A stretch of DNA of 64,000 nt from Nitrospirota bacterium (lineage in GTDB: Bacteria > Nitrospirota > Nitrospiria > 2-01-FULL-66-17). The notes below the pieces were generated by a model. That model saw nothing but the letters and a program-made list of their open reading frames with translations. It was not told where the DNA came from and did not search any database. The stretch is taken from NCBI GenBank assembly GCA_040757335.1, contig JBFLXB010000011.1, forward strand, positions 1-64,000, given 5' to 3'. Shown one piece after another: positions 19,849-23,968 of the stretch. Made by a program: the position numbers and the translations under genes. The stretch's first letter is position 1. Every line of letters starts with the position of its first letter.

Positions 19849-21240
19849 TCAAGACGTCTCGATAAGTTGTGCACGCGCGCTCCGTTGGGCATCGATGGCC
19901 TGTTCGGTCAGACCACGCCGCCTGAAGAGACTGCGGCCCGCCTTCTCCGCCAGCTCCCTGGCCTTCTGCAAATGCGCGACCGCCTCGGGATGGAGCCCTC
20001 CGCCGTCCAAGACGTTGATGCTGGCTTGCGTCTCGCTGACGGCTCGTTTGAGGAGTTCCCTGGCTTCGTTGCGTTCAGCGAATCCCTTCCCGGCGCTGGA
20101 CTCCAGGAGCTCGATGCTCTCCCGAATGTTCTCCAGGGCGTTGAGGACGCGGAGAAACCCAGCCACCGCCACCACCTGGGTCGCATCCAGCCTGATGCCG
20201 ACCCCTCGCGGATCGCTCTGGGCCAGCACCCGCCCGGCTGGTGAGTTATTGAAAGCATCGCCGTTGTAGAACGCCACCGCTCCCTCGATGGTCTCGACGG
20301 CGTTGTTGTGAAAGAACGGGCCGGTGTCGGCCGCTTCCACCAATGGAGGGGTGTTGAAGGTGCCGTCGCCCGGCCTTCCCAGGCCGTCGTCGGGCGGGTT
20401 CCGCACGCCGGAGAGATCAGCCGGTTGGTCCGGCAGGTTCTCCACACCGGTATTGAAGTTCGCATTGCCAAAAGTCCCGGCGCCGACGTTCGCGCTCGCC
20501 CCGGCATTGGCATGGCAGAGATTACACTTGCCCAGCCCGTTATCCAGGAAGATTTCCTGCCCGCGTGTTGGCACCACCCCTTTCAGCGGCAACGGCAAGA
20601 CGAGGTCTTGCCGCCGGCCCAGGGCGAGCATGAACGCCTCGATGGCGTCCAACTCCTCCTCCGTCGGGAGACGAAAATCCACGTCCGGCACCCGATTCAA
20701 CGTCTTGGTGAAATGCTGGATAACGGCCCCGGTGGCGAAAGAACGCAGCGCGCCATCGCCGGGCGCGCCGTCCCCCGACCAGCCCGTGCGTGGTCCCTGG
20801 TTGCTGTTGACGGACGTTCGCAGCGCGAGCACGTGGGGTACCCCGCGCATGACGAACGTGTTCTCCAGGTCGTCGAACCCGTCCAGATTCTCCAGGATGA
20901 GGCCGAACTGGCGCATCAATGCTGGATTCTCGAAATTCTCTGTGAGGTCGGGGTTGAACTCGGCAACGAACAATGGATCAGTCGCCGGTAAGGTGGCGAT
21001 GAACGCGGGATCAAGGGTGAAGTTATTCTGGGCAGGGTGGCAGGTCCCGCAGGTCCGGCCGTTCCCGTTGAACGTCTCGTTGAAGAAGATCTCCCTCCCC
21101 TTGGAGACAAGGTCGCTCGGAGAAGGTGGCGGCGCCTTGCAAGCCGAAAGCGTCGACAACCCGCCCGCCACCCCGCATGCAACCACCAGCCAGGAGGACG
21201 CACGCCAACGGCTCTGGCGCTGGTTCGGCCGCTTACTCAT
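19849..21240 (-). CDS. Diheme cytochrome c peroxidase/MauG-like lipoprotein
   Basis: 463 residues. The signal ends LSTLSAC (lipobox-like). Two haem c sites follow, CGTCH near residue 63 and CNLCH near residue 238. Around them lie FENPALMRQFG, FVMRGVPHVLAL and a distal FFHNNAVETIEGAVAFY, as in diheme peroxidases of the CCP/MauG superfamily. A roughly 100-residue helical C-terminal extension (ELLKRAVSETQASINVLDGG onward) is not part of the usual enzyme. The ATG at 21240 follows GAGGAGACAT. It likely acts in the periplasm, perhaps with the cytochrome at 22487, but substrate and electron partner are not known. Confidence 0.8.
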   Translation of the reverse strand: MSKRPNQRQSRWRASSWLVVACGVAGGLSTLSACKAPPPSPSDLVSKGREIFFNETFNGNGRTCGTCHPAQNNFTLDPAFIATLPATDPLFVAEFNPDLTENFENPALMRQFGLILENLDGFDDLENTFVMRGVPHVLALRTSVNSNQGPRTGWSGDGAPGDGALRSFATGAVIQHFTKTLNRVPDVDFRLPTEEELDAIEAFMLALGRRQDLVLPLPLKGVVPTRGQEIFLDNGLGKCNLCHANAGASANVGAGTFGNANFNTGVENLPDQPADLSGVRNPPDDGLGRPGDGTFNTPPLVEAADTGPFFHNNAVETIEGAVAFYNGDAFNNSPAGRVLAQSDPRGVGIRLDATQVVAVAGFLRVLNALENIRESIELLESSAGKGFAERNEARELLKRAVSETQASINVLDGGGLHPEAVAHLQKARELAEKAGRSLFRRRGLTEQAIDAQRSARAQLIETS

Positions 21241-21621
21241 ATATGTCTCCTCGCTCGGCGTCCGTGGCATAACGTTTCTCGTACGGCGCCAGCTCGGCCG
21301 TCTCCGAACTATCAGCCTCACATCGATGAACTTGCAAAAATGCGGCCACCGCAGGAGCCACCGTCGCCTTGCTGGAGCCTCGCGATGCCGGTGACATTAC
21401 GTATTTGACGCTCATCCGCCACGGCCCGGGCTTGTGTTTGGCGCGCAGAACGCTCGGGTCGTGGGCACTCGGCGCAGGTCTCGATCACGGCTGGGCGGGC
21501 TCGATGTGTTGACCGATCCGTGGCAGTCCGCGACGGGTGCGACGGCTCCGCGTCTCTCGACTCTCCCGGCTTGCGTCCTTTTCAAGACTCCTCCGTCTAT
21601 AGGGGTGAAAGGAGGCCTCAC
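21241..21621. other. 381-bp gap between divergent cytochrome and arsM genes
   Basis: No convincing gene. A 60-codon minus-strand frame (21233-21415, starting MSVKYVMSPA) is open and overlaps the cytochrome start by 8 nt, but has no recognisable sequence. A strong GAAAGGAGG ribosome site sits before arsM. No ArsR-type operator is clear. Confidence 0.5.
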
Positions 21622-22425
21622 ATGACTGAGCGAACACATCAGGAGATCCGGGAATTGGTGCGGGAGAACTACGGCCAGGTGGCCAAGGCTGGTGGCGGGG
21701 GGTGCGGATGCGCACCTGCGTGTTGCAGCCCGGACAATGCTGTGCCGGTGGAGGATGCGGCCCTGGCCATAGGTTATTCGCAGGACGACGTGGCCGCAGT
21801 GCCCCAGGGCGCGAACCTGGGCCTGGGGTGCGGCAATCCCCAGGCGATGGCTGCGCTGCGACCTGGGGAAACTGTGCTCGATCTGGGCAGCGGCGGCGGC
21901 TTCGATTGCTTTCTGGCCGCAAAAGCCGTGGGGCCGCAAGGACGCGTGATCGGCGTGGACATGACGCCGGACATGGTGGAGAGAGCTCGCCGCAACGCGG
22001 AGCAGGCGGGTCTGGGACGGGCGGAGTTCCGCCTGGGGGAGATCGAGCATTTGCCGGTGGCGGACGACACCATCGACGTGATCATATCGAACTGCGTGAT
22101 CAACCTCTCACCCGAAAAGGAGCTGGTCTTTCGAGAAGCATGGCGCGTGCTCAAGCCAGGCGGACGCCTGGCCGTTTCAGACATCGTGGCCACGGCCGAG
22201 CTTCCCGAAACCGTGAAAAACGATCCCGCGCTGTACGCCGGCTGCATGGCCGGGGCCGCGTTGATCAACGACCTCGAAGCCCTGTTGGCGCGGATCGGGT
22301 TTCATACCATTCGCATCACGCCCAAGGACGGGAGTCAGGCGCTTATCCGAGAATGGGCTCCGGAGCTTGAGATCGCGGACGTTCTGATCTCGGCGACGAT
22401 CGAGGCGGTCAAACCCGCTGCGTGA
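21622..22425 (+). CDS. arsM: Arsenite S-adenosylmethionine methyltransferase
   Basis: 267 residues with class I methyltransferase motifs: VLDLGSGGGFDCFLAAK, VIGVDMTPDMVERARRNAE and LKPGGRLAVSDIV. The three family cysteines for As(III) are C70, C158 (ISNCVINLS) and C208 (YAGCMAG); the C158-C208 spacing of 50 equals that of characterised ArsM. A Cys-rich N-terminus (C28, C30, C34, C35) adds possible metal ligands. The enzyme methylates As(III) to mono-, di- and trimethyl species. GAAAGGAGG precedes the ATG. No arsR, arsC or arsB gene is adjacent. Confidence 0.93.
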   Translation: MTERTHQEIRELVRENYGQVAKAGGGGCGCAPACCSPDNAVPVEDAALAIGYSQDDVAAVPQGANLGLGCGNPQAMAALRPGETVLDLGSGGGFDCFLAAKAVGPQGRVIGVDMTPDMVERARRNAEQAGLGRAEFRLGEIEHLPVADDTIDVIISNCVINLSPEKELVFREAWRVLKPGGRLAVSDIVATAELPETVKNDPALYAGCMAGAALINDLEALLARIGFHTIRITPKDGSQALIREWAPELEIADVLISATIEAVKPAA

Positions 22426-22486: not shown

Positions 22487-23164
22487 ATGGCCGCACCTCG
22501 CTTCCTCGCACTGACGCTGGCACTGATGGCCGCGAGTATGGCGGTGGGCGTGAACCGCGTCGACCGCATGGACCGCGAGACCGTGGCCATGCGGATGATG
22601 GGCGGCATGATGCCGCCCATGATGCGGGACATGATGAGCGGCCGCCTCCCGCCCGGCGTGCGACCCGAGGACCTGCCCGATCCCGACGGCGCGGGAGCCA
22701 TGCTGCTGCGTCGCTACTGCACGCAGTGCCACGAGCTCCCCAGCCCGACCATGCACGCGGCCGATGACTGGCCTGCAGTGGAGGCCAGGATGTTTTCACG
22801 CATGGCGATGATGGCGGACATGCGGCACGGGATGCGCGGCATGATGCGACGGCACGGAATGGGAGCGATCGAAGCGCCGACCCAACGCGAGCAGGAGCGA
22901 CTGCTCGCGTACCTCAAGCGGTACGCCCTGCGGCCGGCTGAGGCACAAACCCTGGGACCACCGGACACCCCTGGCCTCGCCCTCTTCCGGCAAACGTGCA
23001 GCCGCTGCCACATCCTCCCCGACCCCGCACTCCATACCCCCGACGAGTGGCCGCTCGTGGTGGGGCGGATGCGGGAGAACATGGAAAGAATGGGTAAACC
23101 TGCGATCAGCGATCAGGACCACGACGAGATCGTGGGCTATTTGCGGGAACGCTCCAGGCAGTGA
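22487..23164 (+). CDS. Methionine-rich diheme cytochrome c
   Basis: 225 residues with an N-terminal signal-like segment and two haem-binding sites, CTQCH (78-82) and CSRCH (171-175). Two methionine-dense stretches stand out: 10 Met in residues 28-50 (including MRMMGGMMPPMMRDMM) and 9 Met in 102-125. Each haem motif is followed by a similar DEWP/DDWP..V..RM pattern, suggesting duplication. Met-rich segments often bind Cu(I) or supply haem ligands; the role here is unknown. It starts 61 nt after arsM on the same strand. The ATG used is weakly supported by a ribosome site. Confidence 0.75.
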   Translation: MAAPRFLALTLALMAASMAVGVNRVDRMDRETVAMRMMGGMMPPMMRDMMSGRLPPGVRPEDLPDPDGAGAMLLRRYCTQCHELPSPTMHAADDWPAVEARMFSRMAMMADMRHGMRGMMRRHGMGAIEAPTQREQERLLAYLKRYALRPAEAQTLGPPDTPGLALFRQTCSRCHILPDPALHTPDEWPLVVGRMRENMERMGKPAISDQDHDEIVGYLRERSRQ

Positions 23165-23332: not shown

Positions 23333-23968
23333 ATGGCGATACGACTAGGAGACGTGGTCCCCGACTTCACCGCGGAGTCCACGCAAGGAACTATTAGATT
23401 TCACGAGTGGATCGGCAACGGGTGGGCGATTCTGTTCTCCCACCCCAAGGACTTCACGCCCGTCTGCACGACCGAGCTTGGAGCCGTGGCAAAGCTCAAA
23501 GACAAGTTCGCGCAACGGGGCGTGAAATTTCTGGCGCTGAGCGTGGACAGCACTGCGGATCATCAGAAGTGGATCTCGGACATCAATGAGACCCAGAATT
23601 GCGTAGTGGACTATCCCATCATCGGCGACGTGGATCGAAGGGTGTCGATGATGTACGACATGATCCACCCCAACGCGATCGACAACCTGACCGTGCGCTC
23701 GGTGTTCATCATCGGCCCGGACAAGAAACTCAAATTGACGCTCACGTATCCGGCCTCGACCGGACGCAACTTCGACGAGATCCTTCGCGTGGTCGAGTCG
23801 CTCCAGCTCACCGCCAAATTCAGCGTGGCCACGCCCGCGGACTGGAAACCCGGCCAAGACTGCATCATCTCGCCGTCCGTGCCCGACGCCGACGTCCCGG
23901 CCAAATTCCCCAAAGGCTCCCGGACCATCAAACCGTACCTGCGCACCACGCCGCAGCCGAACCTGTAA
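23333..23968 (+). CDS. 1-Cys peroxiredoxin (Prx6 type)
   Basis: 211 residues. The peroxidatic motif is HPKDFTPVCTTE with Cys45, and the long C-terminal half (ATPADWKPGQDCIISPSVPD) is typical of Prx6/AhpE-like long peroxiredoxins. It reduces hydrogen peroxide, organic peroxides and peroxynitrite. A second Cys occurs in NCVVDYP and a third in [22 protein letters not shown] precedes the ATG. A strong hairpin terminator follows at once, and the 168-bp upstream gap may hold its own promoter. Confidence 0.93.
   Translation: MAIRLGDVVPDFTAESTQGTIRFHEWIGNGWAILFSHPKDFTPVCTTELGAVAKLKDKFAQRGVKFLALSVDSTADHQKWISDINETQNCVVDYPIIGDVDRRVSMMYDMIHPNAIDNLTVRSVFIIGPDKKLKLTLTYPASTGRNFDEILRVVESLQLTAKFSVATPADWKPGQDCIISPSVPDADVPAKFPKGSRTIKPYLRTTPQPNL

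Follow-up and report, generated by a model that had tools for sequence, protein, structure and literature searches.

The stretch of DNA analysed here, referred to below as the window, comprises 64,000 nucleotides from a Nitrospirota bacterium and carries at 22487..23164 (+) an open reading frame for a Met-rich dihaem cytochrome c of 225 aa. The codon-phase GC of this frame (0.69/0.50/0.83) is coding-like, and its product was classified as a class I-type c cytochrome on the basis of a match to Pfam Cytochrome_CBB3 (PF13442) above the cut-off (30.6 bits, cut-off 27) together with two CxxCH motifs, CTQCH for haem 1 (residues 78-82; 22718..22732, +) and CSRCH for haem 2 (residues 171-175; 22997..23011, +), with the Cys and His of both motifs present in 72/72 aligned relatives. 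No curated equivalog was found for the protein, the Pfam match being generic and all NCBIfam matches sub-threshold. Residues 1-20 (22487..22546, +) were read by eye as a signal peptide or signal anchor, with a helix at residues 6-20 in the structural model; the only Cys residues are the four of the haem motifs, and, with no Cys before residue 78, a lipobox is absent. Judging from its N-terminus and its haem motifs, the cytochrome is probably exported.

Methionine accounts for 27 of the 225 residues, with 10 in an N-terminal arm (residues 28-50; 22568..22636, +) and 9 in an inter-haem stretch (residues 102-125; 22790..22861, +). An earlier, sequence-only reading of this DNA had counted 19 Met in these two stretches and placed them before and between the haem motifs, and both the recount and the CxxCH positions at 78 and 171 agree with it. 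The same reading had called this density unusual, which was confirmed: the maximum of 10 Met per 25 residues in the cytochrome is followed by only 5 in the runner-up among the 307 stop-to-stop frames of at least 100 aa in the window, and the combination of 10 Met in 23 residues with 9 in a separate 24 was reproduced by 0/20000 composition shuffles of the protein, compared to 570/20000 for a single stretch of 9 Met in 24 residues.

The gene is preceded on the same strand by arsM, encoding an arsenite methyltransferase (21622..22425, +; NF008823, 361 bits, cut-off 263), which ends 61 bases before the cytochrome start; no terminator-like or promoter-like site was found in this gap, and the two genes are possibly co-transcribed. 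A peroxiredoxin with a 1-cysPrx_C domain (23333..23968, +) starts 168 bases downstream; its AhpC-TSA and 1-cysPrx_C matches exceed their cut-offs, while the NCBIfam peroxiredoxin match (200 bits) falls narrowly below the cut-off of 211. The divergent upstream gene (19849..21321, −; start uncertain) had been described as diheme peroxidase-like, and two CxxCH motifs are indeed present, but the label itself is weak because the matches to CCP_MauG (19.7 bits, cut-off 25.6) and MbnH (30.2 bits, cut-off 362.85) are all sub-threshold.

The cytochrome family and its conserved methionines

Relatives of the cytochrome were detected at E 1e-10 in 20/269 genomes of the class, and a profile search recovered relatives, many of them partial matches, in 42/395 sampled genomes of the phylum. 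An alignment query of a named contig collection returned 157 relatives, and a single-protein scan returned none. The best 80 of the 157 were used, with hosts which, judging from the record titles, belong to Nitrospirota, Nitrospinota, Acidobacteriota, Gemmatimonadota and several proteobacterial groups; only L099 (Tepidiphilus olei J18) among the 80 carries no MAG label. Together with the window and nine loci from the genome survey, these gave 90 loci for comparison, 85 of which carry both haem motifs in frame. Members with at least six Met in the 50 residues before the first CxxCH and at least five between the haems were termed Met-rich (43 loci, with 42 in the rest), a threshold chosen after inspection of the Met counts that leaves L061 and L074 narrowly below and counted with the rest. 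The alignment retained 73 of the 85 full-length rows, the other 12 having been removed because their identity fell below 36.5% or because they stood on a hand-made list of five overlong or otherwise odd frames. On the family tree, which was built from few columns and has long branches and near-copy rows (L098/L101; L066/L069), the Met-rich label changes 10 times compared to 28.5 times for shuffled labels, and it is thus clustered by descent.

Conservation of individual Met residues was evaluated by aligning the window protein with 42 Met-rich and 30 other relatives. In the N-terminal arm, M37, M38, M42, M45, M46, M49 and M50 are each present in 33-42 of the 42 Met-rich relatives and in 1-12 of the 30 others; between the haems, M108 and M109 are each kept in 40/42 Met-rich relatives, compared to 6/30 and 5/30 of the others. 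The Met share of the N-terminal and inter-haem regions in the Met-rich group reaches 32% and 27%, with Leu at 4% of the N-terminal region, so the stretches do not reflect general hydrophobicity, and the conserved Met residues appear to have been selected for their thioether groups and not as hydrophobic filling. The conserved Met clusters in a predicted exported protein are a feature that the family shares with Met-rich Cu(I)-binding envelope proteins. M102 and M195 behave differently: they are invariant in 72/72 relatives, the Met-poor ones included (M102 in 30/30), and are candidate haem ligands because of this invariance in both groups; H90 (69/72) and H183 (70/72) are nearly invariant beside them in a model that contains no haem. 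M102 may therefore serve in haem ligation and not belong to a metal site, given that the Met-poor relatives also keep it.

Several forms of the family deviate from the dihaem Met-rich type. Single-haem, half-size relatives of 126-148 aa with one CxxCH and 1-7 Met (L011, L013, L014, L015, L016, L017) occur in two other families of the class, and the dihaem form may have arisen by duplication. In genomes of family f2, broken copies with internal stops or an early end (L045:9416-9955, L026:9800-10093, L012:1477-1551) lie near heavy-metal pump genes, which suggests recurrent loss. The Met-poor betaproteobacterial relatives (L104-L108, L115, L120-L124, L128, L130) are flanked by a recurrent, unrelated-looking gene set, a stable context unlike those of the Met-rich members. 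A plasmid search with the L098 protein yielded a single match, over 32% of the query, and the PHROGs search gave one chance-level match.

Gene contexts of the relatives and of the window genome

For comparison of the contexts, called neighbour genes were clustered, their motifs were checked, and contexts were scored within six genes of the cytochrome, some neighbourhoods being shortened by contig ends. Copper/silver-specific genes (a CusA-type pump with the Met triad, a copper ATPase or a CusF-like protein) were found at 11/43 Met-rich loci against 2/42 of the rest (p 0.014), any soft-metal transport gene at 18/43 against 2/42 (p 6e-5), an FCSD/SQR-like flavoprotein at 11/43 against 1/42 (p 0.0034) and a small SHOCT membrane protein at 18/43 against 0/42 (p 8e-7), none of these associations being significant once relatedness is allowed for (four independent pairs on the tree). 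The independent pairs were divided between same and opposite directions as 1.1/1.0 for copper/silver genes, 1.3/1.0 for any metal gene, 1.2/0.0 for the flavoprotein, 0.8/0.0 for SHOCT and 1.5/0.0 for "metal or flavoprotein". Any scored context was present at 35/43 Met-rich loci and 3/42 of the rest; the window is among the eight Met-rich loci with none. L074 and L095 have a copper ATPase nearby although they are below the Met-rich threshold. Five of the 90 loci had been excluded for having fewer than two CxxCH in frame (L026, L045, L048, L064, L076); four of these adjoin or lie near a Met-triad CusA, and the fifth adjoins a SHOCT gene.

In an alignment of the L067 pump with E. coli CusA (3k07), the three Met residues that make up the metal site of the E. 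coli protein are matched; all three are kept in 15 of the 23 related proteins checked, that of the window's own genome included, and some of the other eight are fragments. The order cusCBA, cusF-like gene, cytochrome was observed in L059, L067, L070, L079 and L085, where a SHOCT gene intervenes in L067 and in L070, and two other genes do so in L085. A second arrangement, in L098-L101, brings together a P1B ATPase devoid of the copper motif, a SHOCT gene and a Met-rich protein; in L098 the ATPase scores as cadmium-type and the Met-rich neighbour is an LTXXQ protein. In L022, L055 and L078 the cytochrome is accompanied by the flavoprotein and SHOCT, and flavoprotein and copper-type clusters occur together at 0/43 Met-rich loci. 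The motif checks ruled out that all P-type ATPases and HME pumps near the family are copper transporters: the ATPases of L098-L101, L068, L026 and L072 were counted as "other P1B" (by motif, partly by eye), that of L092, which resembles no heavy-metal pump, was dropped from the counts, and the HME pumps of L062, L098, L100, L101 and L044_3, which do not have the Met triad, were left out.

Some further genes were noted at these loci. Mercury transport-like genes lie near the cytochrome at L060:3529-4155, L075:9142-9498 and L072:10124-10318, assigned to MerF by Pfam in L072 and to MerT by eye in the other two. In L019 (4574-8966) and L022 (12605-17011), genes for an MMPL-type transporter, a LolA-like protein and a DUF1302 protein (tested in L019) are located upstream of the flavoprotein/SHOCT/cytochrome group and possibly constitute an envelope export system; in the window genome, the counterpart of L019's sulfur-type MMPL gene reaches only 25%. 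An F510_1955 glycosylhydrolase-like gene directly precedes the cytochrome in two distant hosts (L085:6807-7712, tested; L109:7086-7982, clustered).

The SHOCT gene is directly adjacent to the cytochrome at 14/43 Met-rich loci and at the fragment locus L064. Its products (for example, L022:10091-10327, L067:7561-7845, L098:8517-8789) are about 74-112 aa long and end in a SHOCT tail; most begin with a Met/Gly-rich stretch, and a single hydrophobic segment was recognised by eye. The window genome encodes three relatives (91%, 68% and 44%; G000:C23:57271-57495, C18:6088-6312 and C1:207716-207901), and one of these genes is followed after 27 bases by that of a copper-translocating ATPase (TIGR01511, 596 bits, cut-off 397), while a gene for a copper-resistance multicopper oxidase (TIGR01480, 841 bits, cut-off 479) lies about 2.3 kb away on its upstream side. 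The small SHOCT membrane protein is likely a copper-related partner.

At the level of whole genomes, a close relative of the L067 CusA (E 1e-250 or better) was found in 135/269 genomes of the class, that is, in 17/20 of those with a family member, Met-poor and broken members included, and in 118/249 of those without (Fisher p 0.0018, ignoring descent and completeness); among 20 hand-picked control genomes, 7 carried it. In the window's own genome, a Met-triad CusA is encoded on a different contig, adjoined by genes resembling cusB and cusC by eye, and the 19.5 kb around it contains no CxxCH gene. The window cytochrome itself adjoins neither a copper nor a sulfide gene, which counts against a copper function; it gives the impression of a member that has become separated from the genes usually found beside the family, the genome's copper machinery being encoded at other sites. 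Replacement of the multicopper oxidase by the cytochrome was ruled out: the multicopper oxidase domain PF07732 was detected in 38/40 sampled genomes, 18/20 with the cytochrome and 20/20 without, so the cytochrome is no substitute for that enzyme.

Proposed role and alternative explanations

The AlphaFold2 model of the cytochrome (73 sequences; pLDDT 84.2, pTM 0.71) shows the N-terminal Met arm as partly helical, with low confidence, and places the second Met stretch mostly in a long helix (residues 92-123). No PDB entry reached E 0.001 in a Foldseek search with this model. The C-terminal haem domain is similar to that of the sulfite dehydrogenase cytochrome subunit SorB (2blf_B; VIA Z 8.2, rmsd 2.4, 66 residues), although such a low Z can reflect common arrangements, and the fold comparison barely covered the N-terminal and Met-rich parts. 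This domain fold and weak sequence matches are shared with SorB and with DHC (2fwt, 3u99; PF09626), from which the present protein differs in having two haem motifs and Met arms; identity with either was rejected, the SorB equivalog of NCBIfam scoring 26.1 bits against a cut-off of 93 and the DHC Pfam 19.3 bits against a gathering threshold of 22.2. In the dense MxxM/MM patterns of an exported protein, and in being encoded partly beside CusCBA or copper ATPases, the family resembles Met-rich copper envelope proteins such as CusF, the CusB N-terminus and the loops of the CopA multicopper oxidase, but here the Met stretches are located in a dihaem cytochrome.

We propose, with a probability of about 0.5, that the protein is exported and that this dihaem cytochrome binds Cu(I)/Ag(I) through its Met arms, coupling soft-metal or sulfide handling to electron transfer. 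The two Met elements, the arm before haem 1 and the helix between the haems, would provide a periplasmic site for Cu(I) or a comparable soft cation, e.g., Ag(I), beside an electron-accepting haem pair. In copper/silver islands, the cytochrome would hold Cu(I) and pass an electron to the c-type respiratory pool, working together with CusCBA and CusF-like proteins; within sulfur islands, this module would receive electrons from the FCSD/SQR-like flavoprotein, with copper tolerated or exploited. The metal binding, the direction of electron flow and the partners in the host are putative; Cu(I) binding is suggested by the conserved Met residues, by the gene contexts and by the Cu(I) binding of model peptides of Met-rich domains described in PMC11840665. 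The suggestion of soft-metal binding made from the sequence alone gains indirect support from the Met conservation in several phyla and from the copper/silver efflux, mercury transport-like or other P1B ATPase genes that often neighbour the relatives, and its arsenic part is not supported: copper(I)-like metals, and not arsenic, are the probable substrates of the cytochrome.

Periplasmic Cu(I) oxidation is usually credited to multicopper oxidases, which use oxygen. A more specific version of the proposal, which we consider rather doubtful, makes the cytochrome a cuprous oxidase that does not use oxygen directly, with electrons passing from Cu(I) or another soft cation on the Met arms through the haems to the respiratory chain, the SHOCT protein docking it at the membrane and the module having been lent to sulfide flavoproteins. 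Oxidation of Cu(I) by the cytochrome is speculative; if it occurred, Cu(I) would be converted to the less toxic Cu(II). A Met-armed dihaem cytochrome tied to CusCBA would wire soft-metal handling to respiration in a form usable without oxygen, in hosts that include Nitrospira, relatives of Manganitrophus and sulfur oxidisers. The gene contexts show one cytochrome module recurring beside copper genes and beside sulfide genes. Because copper affects the assembly of c-type cytochromes (work cited in PMC10304878), the protein might also be a cytochrome adapted to tolerate copper. Observations of possible relevance include, according to PMC5744179, a thiocyanate-induced fccAB + copCD cluster in Thioalkalivibrio, where the copper is thought to serve thiocyanate dehydrogenase, and, according to PMC10092412, a cytochrome c gene of Nitratiruptor induced by Cu and Cd. 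A search of the open-access literature, with subscription literature mostly outside it, recognised no paper on this family or on a Met-rich cytochrome linked to copper, and the exact phrase "methionine-rich cytochrome" was absent from the open-access literature searched.

Alternatively, the protein could be an ordinary dihaem electron carrier, originally the haem partner of an FCSD/SQR-like flavoprotein, in which the Met residues serve packing or protein contact rather than metal binding in the cell; we regard this as possible, if unlikely. Like FccA, it carries two c-haems in a small chain, and the family profile weakly matches the flavocytochrome c haem subunits across both haem motifs (3vrd_A, E 1.2e-4; 1fcd_C, E 5.3e-4), behind a CcoP fusion that is the best PDB match (E 3.3e-7, in several weak pieces); a single-sequence search of the cytochrome against FccA gave E 0.37. 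The flavoprotein gene close to 11 of the 43 Met-rich members and the SorB-like C-terminal domain also fit such a carrier. However, the Met-poor relatives share the haem motifs and M102/M195, mostly without the additional Met, which are hence dispensable for electron transfer as such, and 18 of the 43 Met-rich members are in soft-metal contexts. The Met-rich arms belong to this family and not to FccA, the flavoprotein of the family scores higher against sulfide:quinone reductases (two cases tested), and most members, that of the window included, have no flavoprotein nearby. Identification of the window gene as FccA itself was rejected, as no partner flavoprotein adjoins it and its genome contains no close relative of one (best 29%).

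The genes adjoining the cytochrome in the window were searched against the 90 family loci and 64 further loci, which include repeats and other regions. A clear match to the window ArsM was found at 1/89 other family loci (L057, 45%, an ArsM-like gene downstream of the cytochrome, truncated by the contig end), with weaker matches at L076 (37%) and L081 (32%). The peroxiredoxin likewise had a match at 1/89 (L024, 82%, second gene downstream) and, outside the 89, at L027 (70%), where a decayed cytochrome copy lies about 5.5 kb away, and neither the MauG-like gene nor the small gene on its far side had a match outside the window's own DNA. The redox/metal-stress cluster suggested earlier, for which synteny in other genomes had been named as a check, is therefore not a conserved linkage, and the position of arsM beside the cytochrome is probably a local arrangement rather than a recurrent arsenic operon.

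It is improbable that the Met residues act as an oxidant sink, in which surface Met would be oxidised by peroxide or hypochlorite and repaired, shielding the haems in concert with the peroxiredoxin. The adjoining peroxiredoxin gene and its counterparts in L024 and near the decayed copy of L027 would suit this idea, and repair of oxidised Met in E. coli CusF is the topic of PMC9302797; against it stand the single match among the 89 other loci and the recurrent neighbour clusters, among which no Met sulfoxide reductase was recognised. Quite improbable, too, is a mere accident of composition without function: the inter-haem segment does vary in length and Met count among relatives, and Met-poor relatives still have 15% Met there, but none of the shuffles reproduced the pattern and the same Met positions are conserved across several phyla.

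Binding or oxidation of As(III) by the cytochrome together with ArsM, as the sequence-only reading had considered, is the least probable explanation, since the arsM gene 61 bases upstream with no terminator-like site between and the ArsM-like gene of L057 are set against 88/89 other loci with no clear ArsM match and against the nature of the added residues, which are Met, the sole Cys being those of the haems and As(III) sites usually being built from Cys. A second ArsM-like methyltransferase gene (L141:2034-2579, −; 44% to the window ArsM) is located on contig C16 of the same genome, a few kb from the CusA-type pump genes.
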